A DNA stretch of 37,410 nucleotides from an uncultured Eubacteriales bacterium (lineage in GTDB: Bacteria; Bacillota; Clostridia; Saccharofermentanales; UBA5734), in NCBI GenBank assembly GCA_903919045.1, contig CAIXGU010000097.1, forward strand, positions 1 to 37,410. Reading direction: 5' to 3'. A program made the position numbers and the translations under genes. Shown here piece by piece: positions 3,134 through 31,939 of the stretch (position 1 is its first letter; every line of letters starts with the position of its first letter). Under the pieces are notes generated by a model that was not told where the DNA came from, did not search any database, and saw only the letters and a list, made by a program, of their open reading frames with translations.

Positions 3134-3211
3134 CGTCCGGAGCGGTCCGGGATTTCGCGTTCCGGGCATGGGATCGAAGGCGCCATTTCTGTGGAGTACG
3201 TTACGGTTTTG

Positions 3212-3220
3212 TGCTACGAT
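3212..3220 (+). promoter_or_regulatory. Putative extended -10 promoter of the rnf operon
   Basis: TGC TACGAT fits an extended -10 and would start transcription near 3227, leaving a leader of about 60 bases before rnfC. The -35 region is poor. The hexamer is the same as in the divergent ABC promoter. Confidence 0.5.
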
Positions 3221-3272
3221 GGTCGGGATGCAACCGGTTCGGACGCAAAAAATCCTCGCGTTCTCCACTCCG

Positions 3273-3280
3273 AAGGAGGG
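3273..3280 (+). promoter_or_regulatory. rnfC ribosome binding site; start codon ambiguous
   Basis: A strong AAGGAGGG lies 6 bases before a TTG (3287) and 12 bases before the ATG (3293), which is in frame two codons later. Spacing favours TTG; codon preference favours ATG. The protein would differ by only two residues. Confidence 0.6.
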
Positions 3281-3292
3281 ATCCGCTTGCCC

Positions 3293-4648
3293 ATGACATG
3301 GTCCTTTTCAGGCGGCGCGCACCCGCACGGCCGCAAGGGAACGGCCGAAGCCGCGACCGTTCGCCTCGACGGCTTCCGGCGGGTGGTGCTCCCGCTCAGC
3401 CAGCACGCCGGCGCCCCCTGCCGCTGCCTCGTCGCCCCCGGAGACCTCGTGAAGGTCGGCCAGCGGATCGGCGAGCCCGGCGGGTTCGTCTCCGCGCCGG
3501 TGCACGCCTCCGTCTCCGGCAAGGTCGTCGCCGTGCGGAAGACCGTCGGGTTCTCCGGCGCCCGCATCGAGGCGGTCGAGATCGAGTCGGACGGCGTCTA
3601 CGAGATGCACCCCGACATCGCGCCTCCGGTCGTGACCGACCGCGCTTCGTTCGTCGCCGCGATCGCCGCCTCCGGCCTCGTCGGGCTGGGCGGCGCGAGC
3701 TTCCCGACGCACGTGAAGCTCTCCCCGCCCGCCGACAAGGCCCCGGACACGCTGCTGATCAACGCGGCGGAGTGCGAGCCGTTCATCGCGTCCGACTACC
3801 GGCGGATCCTCGAGGACCCGGCCGCCGTCCTCGCCGGCATCCTGCACGTGATGCACTACATCGGCATCCCCCGCACCGCGATCGGCATCGAGGACGACAA
3901 GCCGCGCGCGATCGCCGCCCTGCACGCCGTGATCGACGCGAAGGCCGCGGCGGACCCGTTCGGCCCGGCCTCGCACGTCGAGGTCGTGCCCCTGCGCACC
4001 CGGTACCCCCAGGGCGCCGAGAAGATGCTGATCCATGCGGTCACGGGCCGCACGGTCCCGTCCGGCGGGCTGCCGCACGACGTGCGCGTGATGGTCCTGA
4101 ACGTGAGCACCGTCGCCTTCATCGCGGACTACCTGCTCACGGGCGTCCCGCTCGTCCGCCGCCGCCTGACGCTCGCCGGCAGCGCGGTGCGGTCCCCCGC
4201 GAACCTGGACGTCCCGGTCGGCGTGCCGATCGGCGACCTCGTCGAGGCCGCCGGCGGCTTCGCCCGCACGCCCGGGAAGGTCCTCATGGGCGGGCCGATG
4301 ATGGGCGTCGCGATCGACTCCCTCGACTCCCCGATCATCAAGGCGAACAACGCGATCCTCGCGCTCGACGAGAAGGAAGCCCGGATCCCCGACGAGTCGG
4401 TCTGCATCCGGTGCGCCAAGTGCGTCGAGTCCTGCCCGATGCGCCTGATGCCGACCGCGATCGACGAGGCCTCCCGCCGCAACGACCTCGAGGAGCTCGG
4501 GACCTTCCACTGCAACGACTGCATCGAGTGCGGCACCTGCTCCTTCGTCTGCCCCGCCCGCCGCCACCTCGTCCAGAGCATCCGGAACGGCAAGGCGCAG
4601 CTCCGCGCCGCCGCGGCGAAGGCCCCGAAGAAGGAGGCGAACGCATGA
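3293..4648 (+). CDS. rnfC: Rnf complex subunit C (NADH-binding, 4Fe-4S)
   Basis: Peripheral 451-residue subunit that exchanges electrons with NAD(H) on the cytosolic face. The N-terminal GGAHPHG segment is the RnfC signature. GLGGASFPTHVKL around residues 131-143 is the nucleotide/FMN-binding glycine loop, and INAAECEP follows it. Two 4Fe-4S sites are visible near the C-terminus: Cys371/374/377/381 and Cys410/413/416/420. The frame extends further upstream but is unconserved there; the start is placed at ATG 3293, with TTG 3287 as a well-spaced alternative. It ends in an ATGA overlap with rnfD. First gene of rnfCDGEAB, the order usual in Clostridia. Confidence 0.96.
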   Translation: MTWSFSGGAHPHGRKGTAEAATVRLDGFRRVVLPLSQHAGAPCRCLVAPGDLVKVGQRIGEPGGFVSAPVHASVSGKVVAVRKTVGFSGARIEAVEIESDGVYEMHPDIAPPVVTDRASFVAAIAASGLVGLGGASFPTHVKLSPPADKAPDTLLINAAECEPFIASDYRRILEDPAAVLAGILHVMHYIGIPRTAIGIEDDKPRAIAALHAVIDAKAAADPFGPASHVEVVPLRTRYPQGAEKMLIHAVTGRTVPSGGLPHDVRVMVLNVSTVAFIADYLLTGVPLVRRRLTLAGSAVRSPANLDVPVGVPIGDLVEAAGGFARTPGKVLMGGPMMGVAIDSLDSPIIKANNAILALDEKEARIPDESVCIRCAKCVESCPMRLMPTAIDEASRRNDLEELGTFHCNDCIECGTCSFVCPARRHLVQSIRNGKAQLRAAAAKAPKKEANA

Positions 4649-5619
4649 GCACGGAAGCCCGTCTCCTCGTCAGCTCGTCCCCCCACCTCCGCGACCGCGC
4701 GACGACCCGGACCCTCATGCTCGACGTGATCGTCGCCCTGATCCCCGCCCTCGTCGCGAGCTACCTCGTCTTCGGCGTCCGCGCCGTCGCGCTGACCTTC
4801 GTGACGGTCGCCGCGGCCGTGCTCGCCGAGGCGGCCGCCCGCCGGATCATGAAGCGCGAGGACACGATCTCCGACCTCTCCGCCGTCGTGACCGGCCTGC
4901 TGCTCGCCTTCAACCTGCCGCCCACGCTGCCGTACTACATGGCCGCGATCGGCGCCGTCGTCGCGGTCGTCGTCGCGAAGCAGCTCTTCGGCGGCCTCGG
5001 CTCCAACTTCATGAACCCCGCGCTCGTCGGGCGCGTGCTCCTCGTGATCTCCTTCCCCGTGGCGATGACCCGCTGGACCGTCCTCGACGGGGCCGACGCG
5101 GTCGCCGCCGCCACGCCGCTCGCGCAGCTCAAGGCCGCCGCCGCGGCCGGGAGCGCGGTGCCCGGGACGGGCGGCCTCCCGTCGTACGTCGACCTGCTCC
5201 TCGGCACCCATGCGGGCTGCGTCGGCGAGGTCTCCGTGCTGGCCCTGCTGGTCGGCGCGGCCTATCTTCTCGCCCGCCGCACGATCTCCCCGTGGGCCCC
5301 GCTCGCGTTCGTCGGGACCGTCGGCCTCTTCGCCCTCGTCGCCGGCCAGCCCCCGCTCTACCACATGATGTCCGGCGGCCTGATCCTCGGCGCGTTCTTC
5401 ATGGCGACCGACTACGCGACGACGCCCCTCTCGTGGAAGGGCAAGCTGGCCTTCGGCATCGGCTGCGGCCTGCTCACCGGCCTGATCCGGCTGTTCGGCG
5501 GCATGGAGGAGGGCGTCTCCTTCGCCATCCTGCTGATGAACATCGTCACGCCCCACATCGACAAGTGGACCCGCCCGGTCCCGCTGGGAGGAGGTGTCCG
5601 CCATGCCCGCAGCGCCTGA
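4645..5619 (+). CDS. rnfD: Rnf complex subunit D (membrane flavoprotein)
   Basis: A 324-residue polytopic subunit of about nine to ten helices, homologous to NqrB, thought to form part of the ion path. It starts with the typical SSSPHLR and contains LGSNFMNPALVGR and GAFFMATDYATTP, both hallmarks of the family. The covalent FMN site is normally a Ser/Thr-x-Ala-Thr motif. Here the region reads DAVAAATPL, with Thr157 kept but the preceding Ser/Thr replaced by Ala. The start overlaps the rnfC stop (ATGA) and has AAGGAGG ahead. The end runs past the rnfG start by 17 bases. Confidence 0.95.
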   Translation: MSTEARLLVSSSPHLRDRATTRTLMLDVIVALIPALVASYLVFGVRAVALTFVTVAAAVLAEAAARRIMKREDTISDLSAVVTGLLLAFNLPPTLPYYMAAIGAVVAVVVAKQLFGGLGSNFMNPALVGRVLLVISFPVAMTRWTVLDGADAVAAATPLAQLKAAAAAGSAVPGTGGLPSYVDLLLGTHAGCVGEVSVLALLVGAAYLLARRTISPWAPLAFVGTVGLFALVAGQPPLYHMMSGGLILGAFFMATDYATTPLSWKGKLAFGIGCGLLTGLIRLFGGMEEGVSFAILLMNIVTPHIDKWTRPVPLGGGVRHARSA

Positions 5620-6316
5620 TCGCGAACCCGTGCCCCAGCCCCACGTCCACGGCGTCTTCGCCTCGTCTCCCCCGGAGCCGCGCACCCCGGGCCGCAAGAC
5701 CTACAAGGACCTGCTCGTCTGGCCCGCCGTCGCCCTGTTCATCATCTGCATCATCACGACGGCCGCCCTCGCCGGCACCAACGCCCTCACCGTCGGGCCG
5801 ATCGCCGATCAGGCGCGCCTCGCCGCCGAGGAGGCCCGCAAGGCCGTCCTCCCGGCCGCGACGTTCGAGCGCGTCGACCTCTCGTCGCTCTCCTCGGCGG
5901 ACCTCGCGTCCGCCGTCGGGTCCTCGAAGTCCCTGTCGTTCGCGAACGCCGAGGCCTACCGCGGCCTCGACGCCGAAGGCAAGACGGCCGGGGTCGTGGT
6001 CGAGGTCGACACCCGCGGCTACGCGAACGGCCTGCGCATCATGATCGGGATCGCCGCGGACGCCACGGTCGCCGGCATCCGCATCCTCGCCGACAGCGAG
6101 ACGCCGGGCCTCGGCAAGAAGGTCGCGGACGCGCCCTTCCTGTCCGGTCTGCTCGGCAAGCCCACGGCGACCGGCTTCGCGGTCCGCAAGGACGCGAAGG
6201 GCGACGTCGTGCCGGTCGACGCCGTGACCGGCGCCACGATCTCCTCCCGCGCCGTCGTGGAGGCCGTCAACGCCGCGGCCCGGCTCGCCGCGCTGCTCCA
6301 GAAGGGAGGCGCCTGA
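5603..6316 (+). CDS. rnfG: Rnf complex subunit G (covalent FMN)
   Basis: A 237-residue subunit with one N-terminal membrane helix (about residues 35-57) and an extracytoplasmic FMN-binding domain. The flavinylation motif DAVTGATIS is intact, with the acceptor Thr at about residue 212. The segment ETPGLGKKV is another family signature. The start is taken at ATG 5603, which has GGAGGAGG 8 bases upstream; the earlier in-frame GTG at 5594 overlaps that ribosome site and is unlikely. It overlaps the end of rnfD by 17 bases. Maturation requires an ApbE-type flavin transferase, not encoded in the window. Confidence 0.95.
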   Translation: MPAAPDREPVPQPHVHGVFASSPPEPRTPGRKTYKDLLVWPAVALFIICIITTAALAGTNALTVGPIADQARLAAEEARKAVLPAATFERVDLSSLSSADLASAVGSSKSLSFANAEAYRGLDAEGKTAGVVVEVDTRGYANGLRIMIGIAADATVAGIRILADSETPGLGKKVADAPFLSGLLGKPTATGFAVRKDAKGDVVPVDAVTGATISSRAVVEAVNAAARLAALLQKGGA

Positions 6317-6320
6317 CGCC

Positions 6321-7130
6321 ATGGCCGAGACGAAGCGCTCCTGGATCTCCGAGATCACCAAGGGATTCGTCAAGGAGAACCCCGTCCTGCGGCTGATCCT
6401 CGGGACCTGCCCCACCCTCGCCGTCACGACCAGCGTCGAGAACGGCATCGGGATGGGCATCGCGGCCACGTTCGTGCTGATCGGCTCGAACGTCGCGATC
6501 TCCGCCCTCCGGAAATTCATCCCGGACAAGGTCCGCATCCCCGCCTACATCACGATCATCGCGGGCTTCGTGACGGTCGTGCAGCTCCTCCTCAAGGCCT
6601 TCGTGCCTTCGCTCGACAAGGCGCTCGGCATCTTCATCCCGCTGATCGTCGTCAACTGCATCATCCTCGCCCGCGCCGAGATGTTCGCGAACAAGAACCC
6701 GGTCGGCGCCTCGGCGCTCGACGGGCTCGGCATGGGCATCGGCTTCACGTCGGCCCTGATCGTGATGGGCGCGATCCGCGAAGCGATCGGCAACGGCACG
6801 ATCCTCGGGTACCCGCTGCCGGTGATCCAGTCCGGCGGCATGATCGAGCCGATCCTGATCCTGATCCTCCCGCCGGGCGGCTTCTTCGTGTTCGGCATCC
6901 TCGTCGCGACGGCCCAGCGCCTGTCCGAGGGCATCGACCGCCGCGCGGTCGCGCGCGGCCTCAAGAAGGCGCGCCTCGCCCCGGCCGGCAATGCCCCGAC
7001 CGCCGAGGACTGCGCGGCGTGCGGCCTCGGCTGCGCGAGCTCCGTCGTCGCGGAGGCCTCCGCCTCGCCCGCCGACGACCCGAAGCCCGCGGCGGACGCC
7101 GCCTCCCCGGAAGGAGGTGAGGACCGGTGA
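6321..7130 (+). CDS. rnfE: Rnf complex subunit E with cysteine-bearing C-terminal extension
   Basis: A 269-residue integral subunit paired with RnfA. Cys30 (LGTCPTLAV) and Cys113 (VVNCIILARAE) are the expected ligands of the intramembrane 2Fe-2S cluster shared with RnfA. The core family fold ends near residue 215. Here about 50 extra hydrophilic residues follow, containing Cys231, Cys234 and Cys238 and then an Ala/Pro/Asp-rich tail. The start at 6321 has GGGAGG upstream. The stop overlaps the rnfA GTG (GTGA). Confidence 0.95.
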   Translation: MAETKRSWISEITKGFVKENPVLRLILGTCPTLAVTTSVENGIGMGIAATFVLIGSNVAISALRKFIPDKVRIPAYITIIAGFVTVVQLLLKAFVPSLDKALGIFIPLIVVNCIILARAEMFANKNPVGASALDGLGMGIGFTSALIVMGAIREAIGNGTILGYPLPVIQSGGMIEPILILILPPGGFFVFGILVATAQRLSEGIDRRAVARGLKKARLAPAGNAPTAEDCAACGLGCASSVVAEASASPADDPKPAADAASPEGGEDR

Positions 7131-7717
7131 AGGCGCTGCTCGTCATCCTCCTCACGTCGATCCTCGTCGACAACTTCGTCCTCTCCAAGTTCCTCGGCAT
7201 CTGCCCGTTCCTCGGCGTGTCGAAGAACCTCAACACCGCGATGGGCATGAGCGTCGCCGTCATCTTCGTCATGCTGCTCTCCACCGCGATCACCTGGCCG
7301 ATCCATACGTTCGTGCTTGTCCCGCTCGGCGTGGGCTTCCTCGTCACGCTGGTGTTCATCCTGAGCATCGCGGCCCTGGTCCAGTTCGTCGAGACGATCC
7401 TGAAGAAGGCGATGCCGCCGCTCTACAAGGCGCTCGGCATCTACCTGCCGCTGATCACGACGAACTGCGCCGTCCTCGGCGTCACGATCCTCAACATCGA
7501 CCAGAAGTACGACTTCCTGCAGTCGATGTTCAACAGCCTCGGCGTCGGCGTCGGCTTCATGCTCGCCCTGTTCCTCTTCGCCGGCGTCCGGTCGCGCGTC
7601 GACAAGGCCGACGTGCCGAAGTTCCTCAAGGGGCTCCCGATCACGCTCATCGCCGCGTCGCTCGTCTCCCTGTCCTTCTTCGGGTTCAAGGGGATGATCG
7701 AGAAGCTGTTCGGCTGA
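7127..7717 (+). CDS. rnfA: Rnf complex subunit A
   Basis: A 196-residue integral membrane subunit, about six helices, homologous to NqrE. It carries the conserved DNFVLSKFLGICPFLGVSK region (Cys26) and TTNCAVLG (Cys114), the cysteines that hold the membrane 2Fe-2S cluster together with RnfE. It uses a GTG start at 7127, overlapping the rnfE stop, with AAGGAGG about 9 bases upstream. The length is normal. The rnfB gene follows after 30 bases. Confidence 0.96.
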   Translation: MKALLVILLTSILVDNFVLSKFLGICPFLGVSKNLNTAMGMSVAVIFVMLLSTAITWPIHTFVLVPLGVGFLVTLVFILSIAALVQFVETILKKAMPPLYKALGIYLPLITTNCAVLGVTILNIDQKYDFLQSMFNSLGVGVGFMLALFLFAGVRSRVDKADVPKFLKGLPITLIAASLVSLSFFGFKGMIEKLFG

Positions 7718-7747
7718 CCGGCCGACGCGGTAGGAGGTACGAACGCC

Positions 7748-8629
7748 ATGCATTTCGCCTTCTCCCTGGCCGTGAAGGCCGGCGACATCCTGATCCCCGT
7801 CGCGATCACCGGCGGGCTCGCCCTGTTCTTCGGGGGGGTCCTCGCGGTCGTCGCGAAGTTCTTCGAGATCCCGCTGAGCGAGAAGCAGACCCGCGTCCGC
7901 GAGATGCTGCCCGGCGCGAACTGCGGCGCCTGCGGCTACACGGGCTGCGACGGTTACGCCGCGGCCCTCGCGAACGACGGCGTCCCGACCGGCCTGTGTC
8001 CCGTCGGCGGCGCGCCCCTGTCGGCCTCGCTCGCCGAGTTCCTCGGCGTCGAGGCCCAGTCCGTCGAGCAGCGCGTCGCCTGCGTGATGTGCAACGGCAC
8101 GTCCGAGCACACGCGCACCCGGTACGAATACCAGGGCATCCCCGACTGCGTCACGGCGTCGATGATGTTCGCCGGGCCGTGGGCCTGCACCTACGGCTGC
8201 CTCGGTCTCGGGACCTGCGTCCAGGCGTGCCCGTACGGCGCCCTGTCGGTCGTGGACGGCGTCGCGATCGTCGACAACGCGAAGTGCACGGCCTGCGAGC
8301 TGTGCGTCGCCGCCTGCCCCAAGAAGCTGATCTCCATGATCCCGATGCGCGAGGCCAGCTACCAGGTGAAGTGCCGCAACCTCACCAGCGGCGCGGAGAC
8401 GCGGAAGATCTGCACGGTCGGCTGCATCGGGTGCAGCCGCTGCGTCAAGGCCTGCGGGGACGATGCGATCCACCTCGACGGCGGGCCGCTCGCGCTCATC
8501 GACCAGGACAAGTGCACGGCCTGCGGCAAGTGCAAGGCCGTGTGCCCGACGAACTCGATCCATTCATGGGGCACGGACGTCGGGGCCGCGCCGGCCGAAG
8601 CGCCGGTCGCGGCGGGCGTCGCGCAGTAG
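7748..8629 (+). CDS. rnfB: Rnf complex subunit B (multi-cluster ferredoxin-type subunit)
   Basis: A 293-residue subunit that accepts electrons from reduced ferredoxin. One N-terminal membrane helix (about residues 14-36) is followed by the RnfB Fe-S domain with Cys59, Cys62, Cys67 and Cys84. Next come a cysteine-rich section with CVMCNG and GTCVQACP, and then ferredoxin-like repeats CTACELCVAACP, CIGCSRCVKAC and CTACGKCKAVCP. The first 4Fe-4S repeat is in the arrangement usual for long clostridial RnfB. A TAGGAGG site precedes the ATG. It is the last gene of the operon; no U-rich terminator follows, only a GC inverted repeat near 8644-8662. Confidence 0.96.
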   Translation: MHFAFSLAVKAGDILIPVAITGGLALFFGGVLAVVAKFFEIPLSEKQTRVREMLPGANCGACGYTGCDGYAAALANDGVPTGLCPVGGAPLSASLAEFLGVEAQSVEQRVACVMCNGTSEHTRTRYEYQGIPDCVTASMMFAGPWACTYGCLGLGTCVQACPYGALSVVDGVAIVDNAKCTACELCVAACPKKLISMIPMREASYQVKCRNLTSGAETRKICTVGCIGCSRCVKACGDDAIHLDGGPLALIDQDKCTACGKCKAVCPTNSIHSWGTDVGAAPAEAPVAAGVAQ

Positions 8630-19593: not shown

Positions 19594-21540
<1,947 letters not shown>

Positions 21541-21683: not shown

Positions 21684-22136
21684 CTACCGGGCGGCGTTGC
21701 CGATCCGCGCCTCGCCGCCGGCGCCGCCCGCCCCGTCCGCGTTCCAGCGGGCGCCCCGCCCGTCCGATCCGGCCCGACACCCCTCCGCCTCCTCCGTCGG
21801 CCTGCGCGTCTCCACGCGCAGCACATCCACCGCCTCGGCGATGCGCGGCTCGAGCCGGGCGATCACCTCGCCCCGCGTGACGAACAGGACGCGCGCGAAG
21901 ACGGCCGCACCGAAGGAATCGTGGATGCGGCCGGCGCTCTGCGTGCCGCGGGCGACGGTCGACGGAGAGTTCGCTACGTACCCGACCGTGCCGAGGCGCG
22001 GCAGCAGGACGCGCACGGCCTCCGCGTCGTTCTCGTTGTCCGGTTCCTTCGCGAGCAGGACCAGGTCGCCCACGGCGAAGGGCGTCTTCCCGTAATAGTG
22101 GTCGATGCCGACGATGGTGACGAAGCGCTCGTCCAT
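21684..22136 (-). CDS. Stand-alone HIRAN domain protein
   Basis: A 150-residue protein whose first 80 or so residues match the HIRAN domain: TIVGIDHYYG, a conserved PDNENDAEAVRV core and GTVGYVANS. HIRAN modules are known from HLTF/Rad5 helicases, where they bind DNA 3' ends, and also occur alone in bacteria with unknown function. The last 50 residues are Gly/Ala/Arg-rich and probably disordered. AAGGAGGG lies eight bases before the ATG. It lies between the NagA fusion and pgk-tpi and has its own weak promoter candidate, so it may be monocistronic. The function is not established. Confidence 0.82.
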   Translation of the reverse strand: MDERFVTIVGIDHYYGKTPFAVGDLVLLAKEPDNENDAEAVRVLLPRLGTVGYVANSPSTVARGTQSAGRIHDSFGAAVFARVLFVTRGEVIARLEPRIAEAVDVLRVETRRPTEEAEGCRAGSDGRGARWNADGAGGAGGEARIGNAAR

Positions 22137-22161
22137 GCCAGGACCCTCCTTGTCCGCCTTC

Positions 22162-22170
22162 AGCGTATCA
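22162..22170 (-). promoter_or_regulatory. Putative extended -10 promoter of the HIRAN gene
   Basis: On the minus strand TGA TACGCT, about 26 bases upstream of the start codon. The element is weak, but it lies just downstream of a perfect inverted repeat. Confidence 0.3.
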
Positions 22171-22261: not shown

Positions 22262-25015
22262 CTACGTCCGTTCCATGCGGCATCCGCCGATGTAGACGGC
22301 CGCGACGGCGAGGTCCGACGCAAGGATCGAGAAGTCCGCGCGCGCCCCCTCCGCGATTCGTCCGATGTCCGTCCGGCCGAGCAGGTCGGCCGGCGTCGTC
22401 GCGAGCATGCGGACGACGTCGACGAGCGGGATGCCCGCGTCGCGGTGCGCCGTGCGGAGGAGCCGGTCGCCCGTGGCGACGCTGCCCGCGAAGGCCGAGC
22501 GGTCCGGGAGCCAGGCCACGCCGTCGGCGACGACGACCGTCCGGCCGCCCTGCAGGCCGCCGAGGAGGCTCTTCCCGTCCGGCATGCCGGCGGCGCGCAT
22601 CGAGTCGGTCACGAGGCAGACGCGTCCCGGTCCCTTGATGCGCCAGATCATCCGCAGCATCGGCGGCGGCAGGTGGATGCCGTCGGCGATCGCCTCGACG
22701 TACATGCCGTCGAGGAGGTAGGCCGCCTCGACGACGCCGCCGCGGCGGTACCCGTCGATGCGGCGAACGGTCGACATTCCGGAATACAGATGCGTCGTGG
22801 AGACGAAGCCGGCCTCGTGCGCCGCGATCGCGTCCTCCATGAAGGCATCGGAGTGGGCGATCGAGGGCCGCACGCCGCGCGCGCGGAGCGCCTGCGCGAA
22901 CTCCCTTGCGCCCGGGAGCTCGGGGGCTGCGCTCCAGCGCAGGATCCCGGGGCAGCGGTCGAGCACGCGGAGGTACTCGGCCGGGTCGGGGTTGCGGATG
23001 TGGGCGGGGTCCTGGGCGCCCTTCTGGGCCATCGAGAAATACGGCCCTTCGAGGTGGAGCCCGAGGATGCGCGCCCCCGCCGCGGAAGCGGACGCCCCGC
23101 CGGCCGCGTGGGCCGCGTCGGACGCCCGCTTCGCCGCGGAGAACGTGTCGAGCGAGCGGAGCAGCGCCTCCGTGGAGCTCGCGAGCGTCGTCGGGAGGAG
23201 CGAGGTCGTGCCGTGGGCCGCGTGCATGCGCGCGGCGCCGCGGAAGGCCTCGGGCGTGCCGTCCATGAAGTCGTGGCCGCCGCCGCCGTGGGTGTGGACC
23301 TCGACGAACCCCGGGACGACCGTCGCGCCCGCGGCGTCGACCGTCCGGACGCCGGCGGCGTCCCCGCCGTCGAACCCGTCCGGCAGGCGCGCGTCGCCGG
23401 GCGCCTCGAGGATGCGGACGATGCGGCCATCCGCGATGCAGAGCGCCGCTTCGGGAAGGATGCGGTCCGGCAGGACGGCGCGGGCGCGGAGGACGACGAG
23501 GCGGTCGACGGCCGCCGTCTTCAGCCCGGAGGAAAGGCGCAGGCCGAGCCCGTCGGTGTGGCGGCGCAGATGGCGGACGAGGCCGGCGGCGTAGGCGTCC
23601 TCGAGACGGTCGAGGGCCGCGTGCAGGCGGTCGCCGAGCGTGCCGCCGGCCGGGTCCGCGTGCTTCAGGACGTGGCCGTACGTGATGTGCAGGACCTGGC
23701 GCGCGTCGTCCTGGTCGAGCAGGCAGGGCAGCCCGGCGTCGGTCATCGACGCCTCGGGCGCGATGTTCCCCGCCTCGCCGGAGATGTGGTAGAAGTTCCG
23801 CGCGTCCGGCAGCGACGCGACCGCGACGCGCAGGATCTCCCGGAACAGCGCGGGCTCGCGCGCGGACAGCACGCGCAGCGCCTCGAGCCAGTGCGTGCCG
23901 GCGGTCTTCAGGTGATAGCCCTCGGGCGCCTCGGCGCCGACGATCGGGAACACGAGGAACTTGTCGCTGCCCGAATGGACGCTGACGCGGTAGCCGAGCG
24001 CGCGGGCGATCGCCGCGTGCGCCGCGAACTCCCCGCGGAACCGGGCGACGTCGCCGCGGTAGTCGACGCCCTTCTGGAACTCGCCGCAGAAGCGCGGGGC
24101 GATGCTCATCGGGCGCACGCCGCGACGCAGCAGCTCCAGGGCCACGAACGCGTGGTCGGCGGGCGAGGTCACGGTCGCCGTCTCGTCGATCGAGACCTCG
24201 AAGTCGATCGGGCGCGCGGACGCCGCGATGCGCGTCCTGTACATGTCGACGGAGTGGGCGATCGCGCCCCGGTACGTCAGGACGCGCCGCTCGAAGCCCG
24301 GGCGGTCCATGGAGACGCCGAGCGCCGCGAGCCGGGGCTCCCCGCCCGCGAGGTAGCGCGCCTCGAGGTCGGCGCGCTCCGCCTCCGGCAGCACGGCGTA
24401 GCGCGCGCGGATCTCCGCTTCGGGCAGCGTCGCGAGCGTCTTGTCGATGTGGTCGGAGCAGTCGAGCGTGATCATCGTGAAGCCGCACCCGAGGGCGCAG
24501 TCGAGCTCCTCGCCGGTCTTCAGGTGGTCTCCGTCGGCGCCGTAGCCCTCGGTCCAGCCGACCTCGAACGCGCCCCAGGTGGCGGCCGCGAGGACCTCCT
24601 CGTAGGTGCGGCCGGTCAGGCGAAGCTCGCGCATGGACTGCTGGGCGAGCACCGGGAAGACGGGCAGGCCCGCGAGCGCCCTCAGGTGGCCGGCGGCCGC
24701 GCGGCCGAGCCGGTCGCCGAGGCCGATCGAGACGGCCTTCCCCGGGTTCGCGCAGGGCGCGAGGTGCGGGAACGCGGCGCGCATCCAGGCGGCGTTGGCG
24801 GTCGAAAGGCCGCAGACGGCCCGGCTTCCGCCGGGGAGGGTGCACAGGCCCTCGAGGCCCGCGGGGAAGCGGCCCTCCGCCGTCTCGACGAGGAGCGCGC
24901 GCGCGCCTTCATGGCGCACGAGCTCGAAGGAGGCGCCGTCCTTCGCGAGGCGCGAGGCCGGGTAGCGGCGATCGAGGGCGTCGGGGCGGGCGACGGCGGG
25001 GTTCGGGTCCGTCAT
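22262..25015 (-). CDS. UxaE (tagaturonate/fructuronate epimerase)-NagA (N-acetylglucosamine-6-phosphate deacetylase) fusion
   Basis: A 917-residue two-enzyme protein. Residues 1 to about 490 match the UxaE family (T. maritima TM0440 type): GDRLG (100-104), the AQQS and TGRT segments, ATWGAFEVG, GADGDHLK, TLDCSDHI, FEVSIDETATVTSP and VSVHSGSDKF. Residues from about 503 match NagA: PGFVEVHTHGGGGHDFMDGT (His574, His576), HLEGPYF (Glu656), AHSDA (His721), THLY (His742) and the catalytic Asp804 in VTDSM. The linker is only about 12 residues with no start codon or ribosome site, so separate translation of NagA is unlikely. The ATG at 25015 overlaps the lacI stop (ATGA). I do not know of this fusion; both active sites look intact. 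The substrate of the first domain may differ from uronates (inference). Confidence 0.9.
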   Translation of the reverse strand: MTDPNPAVARPDALDRRYPASRLAKDGASFELVRHEGARALLVETAEGRFPAGLEGLCTLPGGSRAVCGLSTANAAWMRAAFPHLAPCANPGKAVSIGLGDRLGRAAAGHLRALAGLPVFPVLAQQSMRELRLTGRTYEEVLAAATWGAFEVGWTEGYGADGDHLKTGEELDCALGCGFTMITLDCSDHIDKTLATLPEAEIRARYAVLPEAERADLEARYLAGGEPRLAALGVSMDRPGFERRVLTYRGAIAHSVDMYRTRIAASARPIDFEVSIDETATVTSPADHAFVALELLRRGVRPMSIAPRFCGEFQKGVDYRGDVARFRGEFAAHAAIARALGYRVSVHSGSDKFLVFPIVGAEAPEGYHLKTAGTHWLEALRVLSAREPALFREILRVAVASLPDARNFYHISGEAGNIAPEASMTDAGLPCLLDQDDARQVLHITYGHVLKHADPAGGTLGDRLHAALDRLEDAYAAGLVRHLRRHTDGLGLRLSSGLKTAAVDRLVVLRARAVLPDRILPEAALCIADGRIVRILEAPGDARLPDGFDGGDAAGVRTVDAAGATVVPGFVEVHTHGGGGHDFMDGTPEAFRGAARMHAAHGTTSLLPTTLASSTEALLRSLDTFSAAKRASDAAHAAGGASASAAGARILGLHLEGPYFSMAQKGAQDPAHIRNPDPAEYLRVLDRCPGILRWSAAPELPGAREFAQALRARGVRPSIAHSDAFMEDAIAAHEAGFVSTTHLYSGMSTVRRIDGYRRGGVVEAAYLLDGMYVEAIADGIHLPPPMLRMIWRIKGPGRVCLVTDSMRAAGMPDGKSLLGGLQGGRTVVVADGVAWLPDRSAFAGSVATGDRLLRTAHRDAGIPLVDVVRMLATTPADLLGRTDIGRIAEGARADFSILASDLAVAAVYIGGCRMERT

Positions 25016-26094
25016 GTCGTTCCTCCTTGCGGGGCCTTCCAGGGGGCGGGAGGCGCGCAGCTGGCGCGCGGGACGAGGCGGGGCGCGAAGCGCTCGACGG
25101 TGACCTTCCCCGGCTCCCGGAGCGCGTCGGAGAGGAGCCGCATCGCCGCGGCGCCGGTCTCGAAGGCGGGATGCGCGATGGTGGAAAGGGCGGGGGTGAC
25201 CCAGGCGCTGAACGGCAGGTCGTCGAACCCGAGGACGGACACGTCGTCGGGCACGCGCACCCCGAGCGCCGCGAAGCCCTGGATCAGGCCGAACGCCGTG
25301 ACGTCGTTCGCGGCGAAGACGGCGGTCGGCACGCGGGGGGAGCGTCCGGCCAGTCGGCCGGCCAGGCGGCGCCCGTTCTCGACCTCGTATCCTTCGGTGC
25401 CCTCGGCCTCGGACGTCCCGAGGAAGATGCGGTGCTCGCCGCCGGGGATGCCGAAGGCCGCGAGGCCCTCGAGGAATCCGCGCTGCAGCGATCGGCGGCT
25501 CGGGCGGTCGATCGGGGACGAGGCGAAGGCGATGTCGCGGTGCCCGAGGGCGTGCAGGTGCGCGACGGCGAGCTTCCCCGCGGCCTCGAAGTCGAACTCG
25601 ACGCGGCTGCATTTCAACCCCTCGACGACCTGGTCGAAGGTGACGATCGCGATGCCGCCGGACTGGAGGTCCTTGAGGAGATTCGCATCCGGGCGGGTCA
25701 GGGACACGATCGCGCCGGCCACCTGCTTCGTCGCGAGCATCCGGAGCGAGCGCGCCTCGGTCTCGGGATCGCGGAACGAACTGGCGAGGAGGACGTTGTA
25801 GCCGAGGCGGTGCGCCTCGGTCTCGAGCCCGAGGAGAACGGACGTGAAATAGGGATTCGACAGGTTCGGCAGCACGACGCCGATGTCGGCGCTCTCCCGG
25901 CGGCGGAGCATCCGCCCGATGGCGTTCGGCGTGTAGCCGACCTCCTTGGCGACGGCGACGACGCGCGCACGGACGGCCTCCTTCACGGGATAGCCGCTGT
26001 CGGACAGGACGCGGGACACGGTGGCGCCGCTCACCCCGCAGATCCGGGCGATGTCGTAGATCGTGGGCTTCCGGGTCTTCGGATCCAGGGCCAT
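25012..26094 (-). CDS. LacI-family transcriptional regulator
   Basis: A 360-residue sugar-responsive repressor type. Helix-turn-helix at residues 10-30 (TIYDIARICGVSGATVSRVL), a hinge near 55-65, and then the periplasmic-binding-protein-like effector domain with NLSNPYFTSVL and the DDVSVLGFDDLPFSAW signature. The start is placed at 26094, just before the HTH, with GAGGCGGTGG-like purines upstream; the frame extends 11 codons further without conservation. It overlaps the UxaE-NagA gene by four bases, so it very probably controls that enzyme and itself. The ligand is likely an amino-sugar phosphate or uronate intermediate (inference). Confidence 0.93.
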   Translation of the reverse strand: MALDPKTRKPTIYDIARICGVSGATVSRVLSDSGYPVKEAVRARVVAVAKEVGYTPNAIGRMLRRRESADIGVVLPNLSNPYFTSVLLGLETEAHRLGYNVLLASSFRDPETEARSLRMLATKQVAGAIVSLTRPDANLLKDLQSGGIAIVTFDQVVEGLKCSRVEFDFEAAGKLAVAHLHALGHRDIAFASSPIDRPSRRSLQRGFLEGLAAFGIPGGEHRIFLGTSEAEGTEGYEVENGRRLAGRLAGRSPRVPTAVFAANDVTAFGLIQGFAALGVRVPDDVSVLGFDDLPFSAWVTPALSTIAHPAFETGAAAMRLLSDALREPGKVTVERFAPRLVPRASCAPPAPWKAPQGGTT

Positions 26095-26123
26095 CCGGTC
26101 CACCGCCTCTCCGTGCGCTTCTA

Positions 26124-26135
26124 GCAATCGATTGC
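26124..26135. promoter_or_regulatory. Candidate LacI operator, perfect palindrome
   Basis: GCAATCGATTGC, with the central CG typical of LacI-family operators. It covers the predicted transcription start, directly downstream of the lacI -10 box and 30 bases before the lacI start, an ideal place for autorepression. Confidence 0.65.
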
Positions 26136-26136
26136 C

Positions 26137-26165
26137 ATGCTACTCCGGTCCGCGGATCCGCGCAA
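26137..26165 (-). promoter_or_regulatory. Promoter of the lacI-uxaE/nagA operon
   Basis: On the minus strand TTGCGC (26160-26165), 17-base spacer, TAGCAT (26137-26142). The palindromic operator candidate begins one base beyond the -10. Confidence 0.6.
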
Positions 26166-26276: not shown

Positions 26277-27206
26277 ATGAAGATCTCCGTCGTCATCCCC
26301 TTCTTCAATGAGGAGAAGCAGATCCCGATCACGGTCGACGCGCTCGTGCCCGTGCTGACGTCGCTCGGCTGCGACTTCGAGGCCGTGCTCGTCGACGACG
26401 GCTCGTCGGACGGCACCTGGGCCGCCCTCCGCGCGGCCTGCACCGCCGATGCGCGCCTGCGCGCGATCCGCTTCTCCCGCAACTTCGGCAAGGAGGCGGC
26501 CCTGTGCGCCGCGCTCGACGCCGCGGACGGCGACGCCGTCGTCGTGATGGACGGCGACCTGCAGCACCCGCCGGCCGTGATCCCGGAGATGGTCCGCCTC
26601 TGGCGCGACGAAGGCTACGAGGTCGTGGAGGGCGTGAAGTCGTCCCGCGGGCGCGAGAGCCTCGGCAGCCGGCTGAACGCGGCCCTGTTCTACAGCCTCT
26701 TCAAGCGCCTCTCCGGCTACGACCTGGAGAACGCCTCGGACTTCAAGCTCCTCGACCGCCGCGTCGTCGAGGAGTGGCGCCGCCTCGGCGAGCGCGACAC
26801 GTTCTTCCGCGGGCTGTCGGCGTGGCTCGGGTTCCGCCGCGCGAAGGTCCCGTTCGAGGTCGCCGACCGGAAGGCCGGGAAGAGCAAGTGGTCCCCCTTC
26901 AAGCTGATCCGCCTGAGCATCACCGCGATCACGTCGTTCTCCGCGATGCCGCTGCAGATCGTCTCGGTCCTCGGCGGGCTCCTGCTCGTCGGCTCCCTCG
27001 CCCTCGGGATCCAGACCCTCGTGAAATGGGCGCAGGGCTCCGCGGCGAGCGGCTTCACCACCGTGATCCTCCTGCTGCTCCTGATCGGCGGCTGCATCAT
27101 GCTGAGCCTCGGCCTGATCGGCATCTACCTCGCGCGCATCTTCGACCAGGTGAAGGGCCGCCCGCGCTACGTCGTCGCGGAGGACACGCGACGGAGGGGC
27201 CGCTGA
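26277..27206 (+). CDS. GT2 glycosyltransferase, polyprenyl-phosphate sugar synthase type
   Basis: A 309-residue enzyme of the DPM1/GtrB-like GT2 group, which moves a sugar from a nucleotide donor onto undecaprenyl phosphate at the cytosolic face. The GT-A domain shows VVIPFFNEE, LVDDGSSDGTW, the donor-metal VMDGDLQHPP and SDFKLLDRRVV. The region KAGKSKWSPFKL precedes two C-terminal membrane helices (about 225-250 and 260-285), as in GtrB/ArnC relatives. GGAGG is five bases before the ATG at 26277. The stop overlaps the next gene (TGATG). It probably makes the lipid-linked donor for the GT-C-like proteins that follow (inference from context). Confidence 0.93.
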   Translation: MKISVVIPFFNEEKQIPITVDALVPVLTSLGCDFEAVLVDDGSSDGTWAALRAACTADARLRAIRFSRNFGKEAALCAALDAADGDAVVVMDGDLQHPPAVIPEMVRLWRDEGYEVVEGVKSSRGRESLGSRLNAALFYSLFKRLSGYDLENASDFKLLDRRVVEEWRRLGERDTFFRGLSAWLGFRRAKVPFEVADRKAGKSKWSPFKLIRLSITAITSFSAMPLQIVSVLGGLLLVGSLALGIQTLVKWAQGSAASGFTTVILLLLLIGGCIMLSLGLIGIYLARIFDQVKGRPRYVVAEDTRRRGR

Positions 27207-29779
27207 TGCTGGGATTCGAGGCGCTCCCCGGCTTCCTCGGCGTCCTCGCCTCCGCGTACCTCGCCCTCTGCCTCGCGCTCGGGCATGCGCTGCGCGCCCG
27301 CCTGCTGCCGCCCGCGCCGGCGCTCTTCGAGGGCGCCGCCGGCGTGCGGACCGCGGACGGCCCGGACCTCGAGGGACGGCCCCTGCGGCCGACGCCGCAC
27401 CTCCCCGCCTGGACCTTCGACGTCCCCGTCGCCCTCGTGCTCGGCGGCATCGTCCTCACGTCGGCCGTCTACCTCCTCGCCTGCGCCTTCGACGCCGTCC
27501 TCCCCGCGACGTCCGCGATCCACCCGCTGCTGCCGGCGAACCTCGCCGGCGCCGCCCTGGCGGTCCTCGCGATCCGCGCCCTGCGCCCGCCGCACCGGCA
27601 GGTCCCGCTGGCCGAGGTCGGCCGCGGTCCGGTCGCGCGCGCCGTCGCCGGCGGGACGGACGCCGTCCGCCGCGCCTGGGCGGCCTTCGTCTCCTCGCCC
27701 TTCTTCGCCGGTTCCGCCGTCGCCTTCCTGCTGGTCGGCACCTACATCATGGCCTACGTCTTCTGGATGAAGGACGGGGTCCTGCACTCGGGCGTCACGG
27801 CGTTCAGCGACTTCTCGCCGCACACCGCGATGATCCGGTCCTTCTCGCACGGCCGCAACTTCCCGACCGAGTACCCGCACTTCGCGAACGACGGCATCCG
27901 CTACCACTTCCTGTTCCTCTTCCTCACGGGGAACCTCGAGTTCCTCGGCCTGCGGATGGACCTCGCCTTCGACCTGCTCGGGATCCTCGGCCTCGCCGCC
28001 TTCTGCGTCCTGCTCGGCGCGCTCGGCGTCGCGCTGACGGGCCGCCGCGGCGTCTTCCTCCTCGGCCCCCTGCTCCTGTTCCTCCGCGCGTCGGTCTCCT
28101 TCGTCCCGTTCCTCGCGGAGCTCGCGCGGAAGGCGGACGGGAGCCCGGTCGCCTTCGCGAAGCTGCTCTTCGCCCAGCGCGACTTCATCGGCGACACGCC
28201 CTTCGACAACTGGGGCATCTGGACATTCAACGTCTTCGGCAACCAGCGCCACCTCCTGTGGGGCGGCGTCGCGATGCTGCTCGTGCTGTTCATCTTCCTG
28301 CCCTACCTGCACCGGATGACCGTGCGGCTCCGTGCGCTGCGGCGCCCCGGGCGCGGCGGCGCCGATGCGGCGCGCCAGCTCACGACGGACGACCTGCTGC
28401 GCACGGCCGAGGCCGTCGCCGACGCCTGGTCGGACTCCGCACCGGAGGGCACCGGGCCCGACGACGCGTCGTCCGCCCCCGCGACCGCACCCGCCGCCGC
28501 CCGCCGGCCCGCCCCCGCGCCCGGCCTGCGCGCCTTCTTCCTGTCCCGCGAGGCCTGGATCCCAGACCGCGCGGACCTCCCCGCGATCGGGCTCGCGGCC
28601 GGCCTCCTGTTCCTCCTCCCCTATTGGCACGGCTCCGTCCTGCTCTCCGCCCTCGCGGTCCTGTTCGTCCTCGCGATCGTCTCGCAGGCGCGCCTCGCGC
28701 ATCTCGCCGTCGCCGTCGCCGCCCTCGCCGGCTCCTGGCTGCAGACCGGCTTCTTCGCGGGCTTCGGCACGAGCGTGGTCTCGCCGTCCTTCTACTTCGG
28801 CTTCGTCGCGCCGCTGCGGAGCGTCTTCGGCGTCCTCGACTACGCCTTCCAGGCCTTCGGGCTGACCTTCGTCCTCCTGCTGCTGCTCTTCTTCTCCCTG
28901 CGCCGCACCCAGGCCTTCGCCCTCGCGGCCTTCGCCGCGCCCTTCGCGCTCGCCTTCACGGTCTCGTTCCTGCCGGAAGGGCTGCGCGGGATGACCTCGT
29001 ACTACATCCTCGTCAACCACAAGTTCATCGTGCTGACGTTCGCGCTCGCGAACCTGTTCATCGCCGGGATGCTCTGCGACCTCTGGGCCGCGGGGCGCGA
29101 ACGCGCGGCGTCCTTCTCGTACCGGACGTCCGCGGCTCCGGACGCGATGCCCGATGAGGCCTCCCCGCCCGACGCGGCCCATCGGGAGGGCGCCGGGGAG
29201 CCGCCCGACGCGGCCCCGCCGGTGGAGGCGCCCGTGCTTCCGCGCCTGCGCGCGCCGTCGTTCCCGGGCCTGTGGCAGCGCGTCCTCGCGGTGGCGCTCG
29301 GGTTCGCCCTGATGGCCAACGGGGCCATCGACGCGATCATCTACTTCAACCGCGACCGTCAGACCGTCGGCATCGACACGCGGTCGCCGCTCGTCCTCTG
29401 GATCGAGGCGCACGCCGCACCCGACGCCGTCTTCCTCACGCCGCCGGATTACGCGTACAACGCGTTCTTCCTGTCCGGGCGCCTGTCGTTCTACGCCTGG
29501 CCGTACTTCGCGACGTCCGCCGGGCACGACACGGGCGATCGGATCCAGGTCGTCGACGCGCTCTATGCGGGCTGCGGCGGGGACCTCGCGGAATTCCGCC
29601 GGCTCGCGGAGGAGAACGGGATCGCGTTCGCGATCGTCGACGACGGCCTCCGGAACAATGCGGACCGGACGACCGACGAGGCCTTCTTCGAGAAATACCT
29701 GCCGGTCGCCGCGTCGTTCCCCGAGCTCGGGAACCTGGTCGTGTACGACCTGCGGGCGGACCCGCTGGCCCTGCCGTAG
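27206..29779 (+). CDS. Polytopic GT-C-like membrane protein, paralog 1
   Basis: An 857-residue protein with a dozen or more membrane helices and a C-terminal soluble domain of about 130 residues. The first large outer loop carries FSDFSPHTAMIRSF with Asp202, where GT-C glycosyltransferases keep a catalytic acid. It continues into a strongly conserved block (213-248). NQRHLLWGG is a second shared motif. Two hydrophilic low-complexity loops (about 375-445 and 630-685) are absent from the paralog downstream. I recognise no exact family; lipid-linked sugar transfer is inferred from topology and the coupled GT2 gene. The ATG overlaps the GT2 stop. Confidence 0.85.
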   Translation: MLGFEALPGFLGVLASAYLALCLALGHALRARLLPPAPALFEGAAGVRTADGPDLEGRPLRPTPHLPAWTFDVPVALVLGGIVLTSAVYLLACAFDAVLPATSAIHPLLPANLAGAALAVLAIRALRPPHRQVPLAEVGRGPVARAVAGGTDAVRRAWAAFVSSPFFAGSAVAFLLVGTYIMAYVFWMKDGVLHSGVTAFSDFSPHTAMIRSFSHGRNFPTEYPHFANDGIRYHFLFLFLTGNLEFLGLRMDLAFDLLGILGLAAFCVLLGALGVALTGRRGVFLLGPLLLFLRASVSFVPFLAELARKADGSPVAFAKLLFAQRDFIGDTPFDNWGIWTFNVFGNQRHLLWGGVAMLLVLFIFLPYLHRMTVRLRALRRPGRGGADAARQLTTDDLLRTAEAVADAWSDSAPEGTGPDDASSAPATAPAAARRPAPAPGLRAFFLSREAWIPDRADLPAIGLAAGLLFLLPYWHGSVLLSALAVLFVLAIVSQARLAHLAVAVAALAGSWLQTGFFAGFGTSVVSPSFYFGFVAPLRSVFGVLDYAFQAFGLTFVLLLLLFFSLRRTQAFALAAFAAPFALAFTVSFLPEGLRGMTSYYILVNHKFIVLTFALANLFIAGMLCDLWAAGRERAASFSYRTSAAPDAMPDEASPPDAAHREGAGEPPDAAPPVEAPVLPRLRAPSFPGLWQRVLAVALGFALMANGAIDAIIYFNRDRQTVGIDTRSPLVLWIEAHAAPDAVFLTPPDYAYNAFFLSGRLSFYAWPYFATSAGHDTGDRIQVVDALYAGCGGDLAEFRRLAEENGIAFAIVDDGLRNNADRTTDEAFFEKYLPVAASFPELGNLVVYDLRADPLALP
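27842..27948 (+). repeat. Conserved block, copy 1, of tandem GT-C-like genes
   Basis: A 107-base stretch that matches 30416-30522 with 11 mismatches by hand count, in the same reading frame (residues 213-248). It covers the outer-loop motif after the putative catalytic Asp. Confidence 0.85.
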
Positions 29780-29797
29780 ACGCGGACGCTCCGAAGG

Positions 29798-31939
29798 ATG
29801 GCCGCCCTCCTCTTCCTGGTCCTCGCGTTCTGGCTCGGCGACCGCATCCGGCGCCGCGCCGTCCCCGACACGCGCGCGCTGTTCGCCGCGATTGCGGGGA
29901 CCGGCCCTGCGCGCCCGGCCGATGGGACCGGCGACGACGCGGACGCGCCGCCGCTCCTCCCGCCCTCCTGGACGTTCGATCTTCCGGCCGCGCTCGTGAC
30001 GGGCGTCCTCGTCCTCGCGTCGGCGACGTATCTCGCCGGCTATGCGTTCGATGCGCTCGTCCAGGAGGGCCTGCACCCCCTCCTCCCCGCGAACGCCCTC
30101 GTGCTGGGCCTCGCCGCCGCCGCGATCGCGATCGACGTCCTCGTCGCCTCCCGGCCCCGGCGCCGCGCGCTCCGCGCCGACGCCGCCTCCCGCCTCTCCG
30201 GCCTCGCGGCGCGGGTCCGCGCCTGGGCGGCCGCCCGTCCCTTCCGGATCTCCGGCGCCTTCCGCCGGCCGTCCGTCTACGCCGTCTCCGCGGCCGTCTT
30301 CCTCGCCCTCGGCTGGTTCCTGATGGCCTCGGTCCTCACGGTGAAGGACGGGCGGCTCTCCGCGGGCGCCACGGTGTTCAGCGACTACGCCCCGCACATC
30401 GCCCTGATCCGCTCGTTCTCGCACGGGCGCAACTTCCCGACCGAGTACCCCCTGTTCCCGGGCGACGGGATCCGCTACCACTTCCTCTTCCTGTTCCTCA
30501 CGGGGAACCTGGAGTTCCTCGGGATGCGCCTCGACGTCGCGTTCAACCTGCTCGGCGCGCTCGGGCTCGTCGCGTTCTGCCTGCTCCTCGGCGCGCTCGC
30601 GGTCCTGCTGGTCCGCCGCCGCTCGGCCTTCCTCGTCGCGCCGCTCCTGCTGTTCCTGCGCAGCTCGCTCGCCTTCGCGACGTTCCTCGGCGCGCTGTGG
30701 CGCGAATCCGACGGGAACCTCGGGGGCGTGATCGTCGGGCTGCTCCTGAACCGCGGCTACATCGGGGAGACGCCCTACGAGAACTGGGGCCTGTGGACCG
30801 TCAACGTCTACAGCAACCAGCGCCACCTCCTGTGGGGCGCCTCCGTCCTGGTGCTCGCGCTCCTCCTGCTCCTGCCCCTCTGGCGGCGCTCGCCGCAGCC
30901 GCGCCTGCTCTCCCGCGACGCCTGGCTCCCGCAGGACGCGCGTCCCGTCCTCCTCGCCGGACTCCTCCTCGTCCTGCTGCCCTACTTCCACGGCTCGATG
31001 CTGATCGGGGCGTGCCTCGTCCTCGGCACGGTCGGCCTCTTCTCCGCGGGGCGCCTCGCCTTCGCCGCGGTCCTCGCGGCCGGCGCCGGCTCCGCCGTGC
31101 TGCAGGCCGCCTTCTTCTCGGGCGGCGCCGCGTCCGTCGCGCACCCCCGGATCCTGCTCGGCTTCGTCGCCGAGGACAGGACCCTCGCCGGCGTCCTCGC
31201 GTACTGCGTCCTCGCCTTCGGGGTCGCCTTCGTCCTGCTCCCGTTCCTCCCGCTGCTCGGAACGCGGCGGCAGGCCGTGCTCTGGCTTGCGTTCCTCGTC
31301 CCCTTCGTCTTCGCCTTCACGGTGTCGCTGACGCCCGACGTGGCGGTGAACCACAAGTACATCCTGCTGGCGTTCGCGCTCGAGAACGTCTTCCTCGCCG
31401 GCCTGCTCGCGGCGCTCGCGCGTCCGCCGTCCGACGCGGGCCGCCTGCGGCGCATCCTGCGGAAGTCTCTCGCCGTCGCGCTCGCCGTCTTCCTGACCGC
31501 GACCGGGTGCATCGACCTCTGGACGTATTTCGTCGCGAACCGCATCCGCGTGTCGATTCCGCTCGATTCGCCCGTCGCGGCGTGGATCGAGACGCACACG
31601 GATCCCGACGACGTGTTCCTCACGCCGCGCTACCACTACAACGCGTTCTTCCTCGCCGGCCGCAAGGCCTTCCTCGGCTGGCCCTACTACGCCTGGTCCG
31701 CGGGCCACGGCACCGGGGCGCGCAACGACCGCGTCCTCTGGCTCTATGCGGGCGCGGGGAACAGCGCCGACGCGTTCCGGGCCTTCTGCCGGGAGAACGG
31801 GATCGCCTATGCGATCGTCGACGACGGGTGGCGGAGGGATCTCGGAGAGGGCCTGGACGAAGCGTTCCTCGCGGCGAATTTCCGCGTGGCGGCGACGTTC
31901 CCCGACGACGGGAACCTGACGGTCTACGCGATCGGCTGA
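29798..31939 (+). CDS. Polytopic GT-C-like membrane protein, paralog 2
   Basis: A 713-residue paralog of the preceding gene, collinear over nearly its whole length but lacking the two low-complexity loops and with a shorter N-terminus. Shared features: FSDYAPHIALIRSF (Asp196), the 107-base conserved block (residues 207-242), NQRHLLWGA, VNHKYI, and the C-terminal soluble domain with WIETHTDPDDVFLTP and YAIVDDGW. The start is uncertain: CGAAGG abuts the ATG with no spacer, and the gene is in the same frame as paralog 1, separated by one TAG and six codons. Function inferred as for paralog 1. Confidence 0.83.
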   Translation: MAALLFLVLAFWLGDRIRRRAVPDTRALFAAIAGTGPARPADGTGDDADAPPLLPPSWTFDLPAALVTGVLVLASATYLAGYAFDALVQEGLHPLLPANALVLGLAAAAIAIDVLVASRPRRRALRADAASRLSGLAARVRAWAAARPFRISGAFRRPSVYAVSAAVFLALGWFLMASVLTVKDGRLSAGATVFSDYAPHIALIRSFSHGRNFPTEYPLFPGDGIRYHFLFLFLTGNLEFLGMRLDVAFNLLGALGLVAFCLLLGALAVLLVRRRSAFLVAPLLLFLRSSLAFATFLGALWRESDGNLGGVIVGLLLNRGYIGETPYENWGLWTVNVYSNQRHLLWGASVLVLALLLLLPLWRRSPQPRLLSRDAWLPQDARPVLLAGLLLVLLPYFHGSMLIGACLVLGTVGLFSAGRLAFAAVLAAGAGSAVLQAAFFSGGAASVAHPRILLGFVAEDRTLAGVLAYCVLAFGVAFVLLPFLPLLGTRRQAVLWLAFLVPFVFAFTVSLTPDVAVNHKYILLAFALENVFLAGLLAALARPPSDAGRLRRILRKSLAVALAVFLTATGCIDLWTYFVANRIRVSIPLDSPVAAWIETHTDPDDVFLTPRYHYNAFFLAGRKAFLGWPYYAWSAGHGTGARNDRVLWLYAGAGNSADAFRAFCRENGIAYAIVDDGWRRDLGEGLDEAFLAANFRVAATFPDDGNLTVYAIG
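30416..30522 (+). repeat. Conserved block, copy 2, of tandem GT-C-like genes
   Basis: Second copy of the 107-base block described at 27842-27948; about 90% identical at the DNA level. Confidence 0.85.

Follow-up and report, generated by a model that had tools for sequence, protein, structure and literature searches.

Why a tagaturonate epimerase (UxaE) and a GlcNAc-6-P deacetylase (NagA) should share one reading frame is the question raised by the 37,410-nucleotide stretch of clostridial DNA analysed here (the window). The arrangement is probably due to the recent joining, within one lineage, of two ordinary enzymes after the loss of neighbouring genes, rather than to a new pathway.

Two complete enzymes in one frame

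The fused gene (22262–25015, minus strand) runs over 917 codons without a break from an ATG at 25015 to a stop codon at 22264–22262. Its product of 917 amino acids comprises (i) a UxaE-type tagaturonate/fructuronate epimerase (residues 17–492; 23540–24967, minus strand), (ii) a linker of about 12 residues (493–504; 23504–23539, minus strand), and (iii) a NagA-type deacetylase (residues 505–917; 22265–23503, minus strand), with the match to NagA-type amidohydrolases covering approximately residues 505–911. The gene represents the single UxaE match as well as the single NagA match of the window genome. The N-terminal half belongs to Pfam family PF16257 (498.9 bits at a cut-off of 27.1; E = 1.9e-149; residues 64–489, profile positions 50–474 of 475) and aligns from residue 17 to 492 with the structure of Cohnella UxaE (6il9; phmmer, E = 4.8e-120). 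The C-terminal half is matched by solved NagA structures in sequence searches (6fv3, 2vhl and 1o12) and by TIGR00221 (E = 1.5e-61); since its score of 208.4 bits does not reach the equivalog cut-off of 225.65, it falls short of a NagA equivalog in the strict sense. The AlphaFold model of the entire protein (mean pLDDT 90.7, pTM 0.61) contains two confident domains joined by a low-confidence linker (residues 496–502), indicating two well-modelled domains whose relative position is uncertain. Foldseek assigned 6il9 to the first domain (41–42 % identity in structural alignments to 6il9/6ila) and NagA structures to the second. The UxaE–NagA fusion is thus confirmed in the sequence, with two complete enzymes placed end to end.

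The active sites of both halves are preserved. In the UxaE half, E130 and D163 align with Glu126 and Asp159, which were proposed as the catalytic residues of Cohnella UxaE (PMC11194214), and the conserved motifs GADGDHLK, GEFQKG, HSGSDKF and D163-H164, metal-site motifs included, agree throughout with the uronate-type family. The NagA half shares the fold of characterised NagA proteins and retains HxH (residues 574–576, as in binuclear-type enzymes), HLEGPY, AHSDA, THLYS and VTDS. The metal ligands are provided by HxH, the Glu of HLEGPY and the His residues of AHSDA and THLYS, while the catalytic Asp of VTDS is equivalent to D267 of Mycobacterium smegmatis NagA (6fv4, PMC6016474). Asn212 of the latter enzyme contacts the substrate phosphate; the corresponding residue here is Ser745. 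Ser occupies this position in all 22 NagA rows compared and can therefore be regarded as a subfamily trait, not as damage, and the conserved Arg of the phosphate-contact loop is still present. Lacking the phosphate-contacting Asn and scoring below the TIGR00221 cut-off, the NagA half is only putatively assigned to a substrate.

At the junction, no ATG, GTG or TTG was found in any frame between nucleotides 1380 and 1585 of the coding sequence. Within the NagA half, translation in this frame could begin at the earliest from an ATG at residue 584, i.e., past the HxH metal motif. The original prediction, made from the letters of the sequence, had described a single 917-codon frame with full UxaE and NagA domains, a linker of about 12 residues, no internal start and intact metal and catalytic residues of NagA; all of this was borne out.

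Regulator, operator and the unfused genes of a sister genome

A gene for a LacI-family regulator (25012–26094, minus strand, start at about 26094; Pfam LacI and Peripla_BP_3) is located directly upstream of the fused gene and overlaps it by the 4 bp ATGA (AAGGAGGAACGACATGA). It is preceded by a likely LacI operator, the palindrome TAGCAATCGATTGCCA (26122–26137), which is the only match in the window at up to two mismatches (0.01 expected by chance). The palindrome is conserved in the sister genome G001, where it is perfect over 20 bp, and beside the LacI genes of three further loci (L078, L054, L097). Within 1.8 Mb of loci, all sites with at most one mismatch adjoin such a LacI gene, two of them in L078 and one each in the window, G001, L054 and L097. 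The gene order is LacI-nagB-nagA in L078 and LacI-Gfo-aminotransferase-nagA in L054 and L097, the names Gfo and aminotransferase being read from the sequence. UxaE proteins of PF16257 otherwise resemble the N-terminal half in full-length domain and in the catalytic Glu/Asp, HSGSDKF, GEFQKG and DGDH motifs; the window gene differs from them in its C-terminal fusion to NagA and in standing under an operator common to nagA clusters instead of in a uronate operon. Since nagA clusters of other Clostridia carry this operator as well, uxaE appears to have joined an amino-sugar regulon.

In L054 (9373–17028) and L097 (5932–12455), genes for LacI, a Gfo-like protein, a class III aminotransferase-like protein, a NagA of this subfamily and a glutamate dehydrogenase-like protein stand in a row together with the same operator, possibly representing an amino-sugar route without NagB.

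Among the 148 relatives examined, G001 is the single genome of the same genus. On its contig C25 (CAILLO010000025.1), uxaE and nagA are two genes on the same strand, about 19 kb apart, and none is fused. Their products are 81 % (UxaE) and 76–77 % (NagA) identical to the respective halves, the LacI protein beside G001 uxaE is 77 % identical to that of the window, and the upstream LacI gene and operator as well as the downstream HIRAN-domain gene (window 21684–22166, minus strand) are common to both genomes. At the DNA level, LacI-UxaE corresponds to positions 50266–47661 of C25 (78.9 % identity), NagA to 28311–27165 (81.0 %) and HIRAN to 19749–19385, the latter gene following in the same order about 7.4 kb farther off. 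Unlike in the window, the 19 kb between uxaE and nagA of G001 hold other genes, encoding a ketohexokinase-family protein, URO-D-like proteins, AraC, an ABC transporter, GH4, an AgaS-like SIS protein and Gfo/Idh, together with a GH20-like stretch. Mere relocation of these genes in the window genome was considered and ruled out, as no orthologues of the 34.0–47.6 kb region were found elsewhere in it and the long matches are just 64–67 % identical, i.e., at paralogue level. The original prediction had staked itself on the absence of two-gene relatives in the same clade. G001 is such a relative, and the separation of uxaE and nagA in it disposes of the idea that the two form a long-conserved functional pair, but leaves the fusion itself untouched.

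Three URO-D-like proteins are encoded within the sugar-utilisation cluster of G001 (C25, 31.6–46.1 kb; L032, L033), and similar proteins also adjoin NagA or UxaE in L056, L073 and L035.

Directly after uxaE, G001 carries a remnant of nagB (C25, about 47.3–47.6 kb; L033), the ATGA of which overlaps the uxaE stop. Due to an internal deletion and loss of frame, it consists of a short N-terminus followed, in a different frame, by some 90 residues of the C-terminus. The window junction reads CTGCGCCTTTCCTCCGGGCTGAAG and its counterpart in G001 CTGCGGAGGGGCGCATGAAG; the TGAAG of the window may be derived from the stop of uxaE and the start of nagB, with the frame shifted by one and the ATG now CTG. 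Judged from this one sister genome, the common ancestor would have possessed a LacI-controlled operon LacI-uxaE-nagB with nagA farther down. In the window lineage, nagB and the intervening genes would then have been lost, as well as the start of nagA, and a frame change would have removed the UxaE stop, yielding one bifunctional gene. As the sister genome still shows the unfused operon and a nagB in decay, a plausible stepwise route to a fusion can be outlined.

Alternatively, the single frame may have arisen artificially or through a very recent frameshift; the genes would then be separate in the living cell and would have been merged here by an error of one base or by chimeric assembly. The fusion is known from one metagenome-assembled genome (308 contigs, 94 % complete), and a TGA in the +1 frame (window 23523–23521) is positioned exactly at the end of UxaE, so that the change of a single base near 23523 would divide the frame. 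Moreover, the search for UxaE and NagA in one protein, as suggested by the original prediction, returned the window and no second case: none of about 60 UxaE genes of a wider sampling and of 64 other named UxaE loci (some cut by contig ends) is fused to nagA, and in 391 genomes sampled at class level and 399 at phylum level, UxaE genes reside in open frames of at most 632 amino acids, the window excepted. However, if the frame were split, the NagA half would have no ATG, GTG or TTG start before residue 584, and third-position GC is even across the joint (0.88–1.00 over the entire fused frame). In addition, synteny with G001 is intact at the downstream HIRAN gene, unlike in a random chimera, and the end of uxaE and the start of nagA in G001 do not share a stretch of sufficient length to have misled the assembly. 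An artefact is accordingly unlikely. If real in the cell, the fusion represents a new domain architecture, as no second case appeared in the genomes and loci covered; the literature available contained nothing relevant on fusions of NagA or UxaE.

Neither half appears to decay: dN/dS relative to G001 amounts to 0.28 (UxaE) and 0.34 (NagA), with dS close to 0.5, values which average the whole divergence before and after the fusion, and in trees both halves pair with G001 on window branches about half as long as those of G001 (0.089 vs. 0.18 and 0.16 vs. 0.31).

Predicted roles of the two halves

The UxaE of Thermotoga maritima was reportedly described by Rodionova et al. in 2012 as a tagaturonate-fructuronate epimerase. 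In agreement with such a role, the window genome encodes UxaC adjoining a UxuB-type SDR on contig C134 (76–77 % identity to G001, where the pair is likewise adjacent); the D-mannonate dehydratase step is represented by no more than a two-piece match to UxuA on C82, and a family search for UxaA gave no match. Galacturonate utilisation in T. maritima with UxaC but without UxaA relies on UxaE (PMC6353982; PMC3750489). Likewise, with UxaC present and UxaA not found, the window genome would need a tagaturonate epimerase if galacturonate is used. At a completeness of 94 %, gene absences from this genome are provisional.

The N-terminal half is predicted to interconvert D-tagaturonate and D-fructuronate, such that galacturonate could enter the UxuB route via UxaC. 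The C-terminal half is predicted to deacetylate GlcNAc-6-P or a close analogue, and the subsequent deamination could be provided by the NagB-type proteins encoded elsewhere in the genome (C1 and C44). Overall, the data fit an ordinary epimerase of the galacturonate route and the only NagA of the genome in a new arrangement. The fusion would mainly ensure that one regulator governs both halves, with joint and equal expression. As the two reactions have no intermediate in common in this canonical reading, channelling from one half to the other was considered but dismissed.

As an alternative use of the two activities, the original prediction had proposed joint degradation of uronate and HexNAc from glycosaminoglycans. 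Joint use is the straightforward reading and fits better than its main hypothesis, since UxaE and the present NagA subfamily are found jointly in other Clostridia (L047, L051, L054, L060). No GH88 was found in the window genome or in G001, so that there is no indication of glycosaminoglycan supply by lyases. GH20 matches are weak.

A more specific link between both halves would be a single pathway for N-acetyl-hexosaminuronates (GalNAcA/GlcNAcA), in which the NagA-like enzyme deacetylates, a NagB-like enzyme deaminates to tagaturonate or fructuronate, and UxaE epimerises for UxuB. The exchange of the phosphate-contacting Asn for Ser throughout the compared NagA rows is consistent with this route, as is the requirement of characterised NagA for an anionic group at C6 but not for phosphate as such, GlcNAc-6-sulfate being accepted. 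The classical NagB loop reads TG-[S/G]-TP, whereas the NagB-like partners display TGASQ/APSQ motifs. Furthermore, UxaE with UxaC (clustered in 17 of the 64 loci of UxaE relatives) and this NagA (with or without NagB) recur together, which such a pathway would explain. On the other hand, the loss of one phosphate contact is no proof of a new substrate, the more so as the loop Arg is retained, and most relatives of this NagA have nagB alongside without uxaE. In the literature available, no enzyme or paper on such a route was found. Altogether, this pathway is rather improbable, and there is a still slighter chance that the fusion marks an undescribed N-acetyl-hexosaminuronate route of Clostridia, with a NagA-like enzyme adapted to a C6-carboxylate, a NagB-like enzyme and UxaE, the first and third steps residing in one protein. 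Since UxaE is repeatedly found next to a NagA subfamily devoid of the phosphate contact, a specific substrate question nevertheless becomes testable.

In the main hypothesis of the original prediction, GalNAc-6-P is the substrate of the NagA half, and the UxaE half turns tagatose-6-P into fructose-6-P, so that the tagatose kinase/aldolase route is bypassed. This is very unlikely: although tagatose 4-epimerases of the UxaE fold are known from the PDB (9lhw, 9kcs) and G001 encodes the AgaS-like SIS protein, the ketohexokinase-family protein and the GH20-like stretch between uxaE and nagA, this SIS protein has no close counterpart in the window genome (matches of 29–32 % only, including one on a long frame that would suit GlmS), the UxaE motifs are those of the uronate-type family, the tagaturonate epimerase would be needed for galacturonate in a genome with UxaC and UxuB-type SDR but no detected UxaA, and UxaE relatives adjoin UxaC. 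Of the genes that the original prediction had suggested to look for elsewhere in the genome, uxaC and uxuB have counterparts on C134 and nagB on C1 and C44, whereas uxuA is represented by the two-piece match on C82 and agaS at most by the distant SIS matches.

Further features of the window and of related loci

Rfam and tRNA scans of the window gave no matches. A second fusion, of phosphoglycerate kinase and triosephosphate isomerase in one frame, is encoded at 19594–21540 (minus strand); this type of fusion is already known from Thermotoga. Genes for an Rnf complex (RnfC, FMN-binding RnfG, Rnf-Nqr membrane subunits and RnfB) are located at 3191–8629 (plus strand), and a second Rnf/Nqr-like set is present on another contig of the same genome (G000, C156; L128). 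Downstream of a glycosyltransferase gene, two long frames occupy 26504–31939 (plus strand), the first part of which is syntenic with G001: the frame at 26504–29779 is without a Pfam match, and that at 29798–31939 has a weak match to DUF6798. A further instance of linkage occurs in another family of the order (G047, C63, 6626–11079; L163), where two tandem NagA-like genes (35 %) adjoin uxaE.
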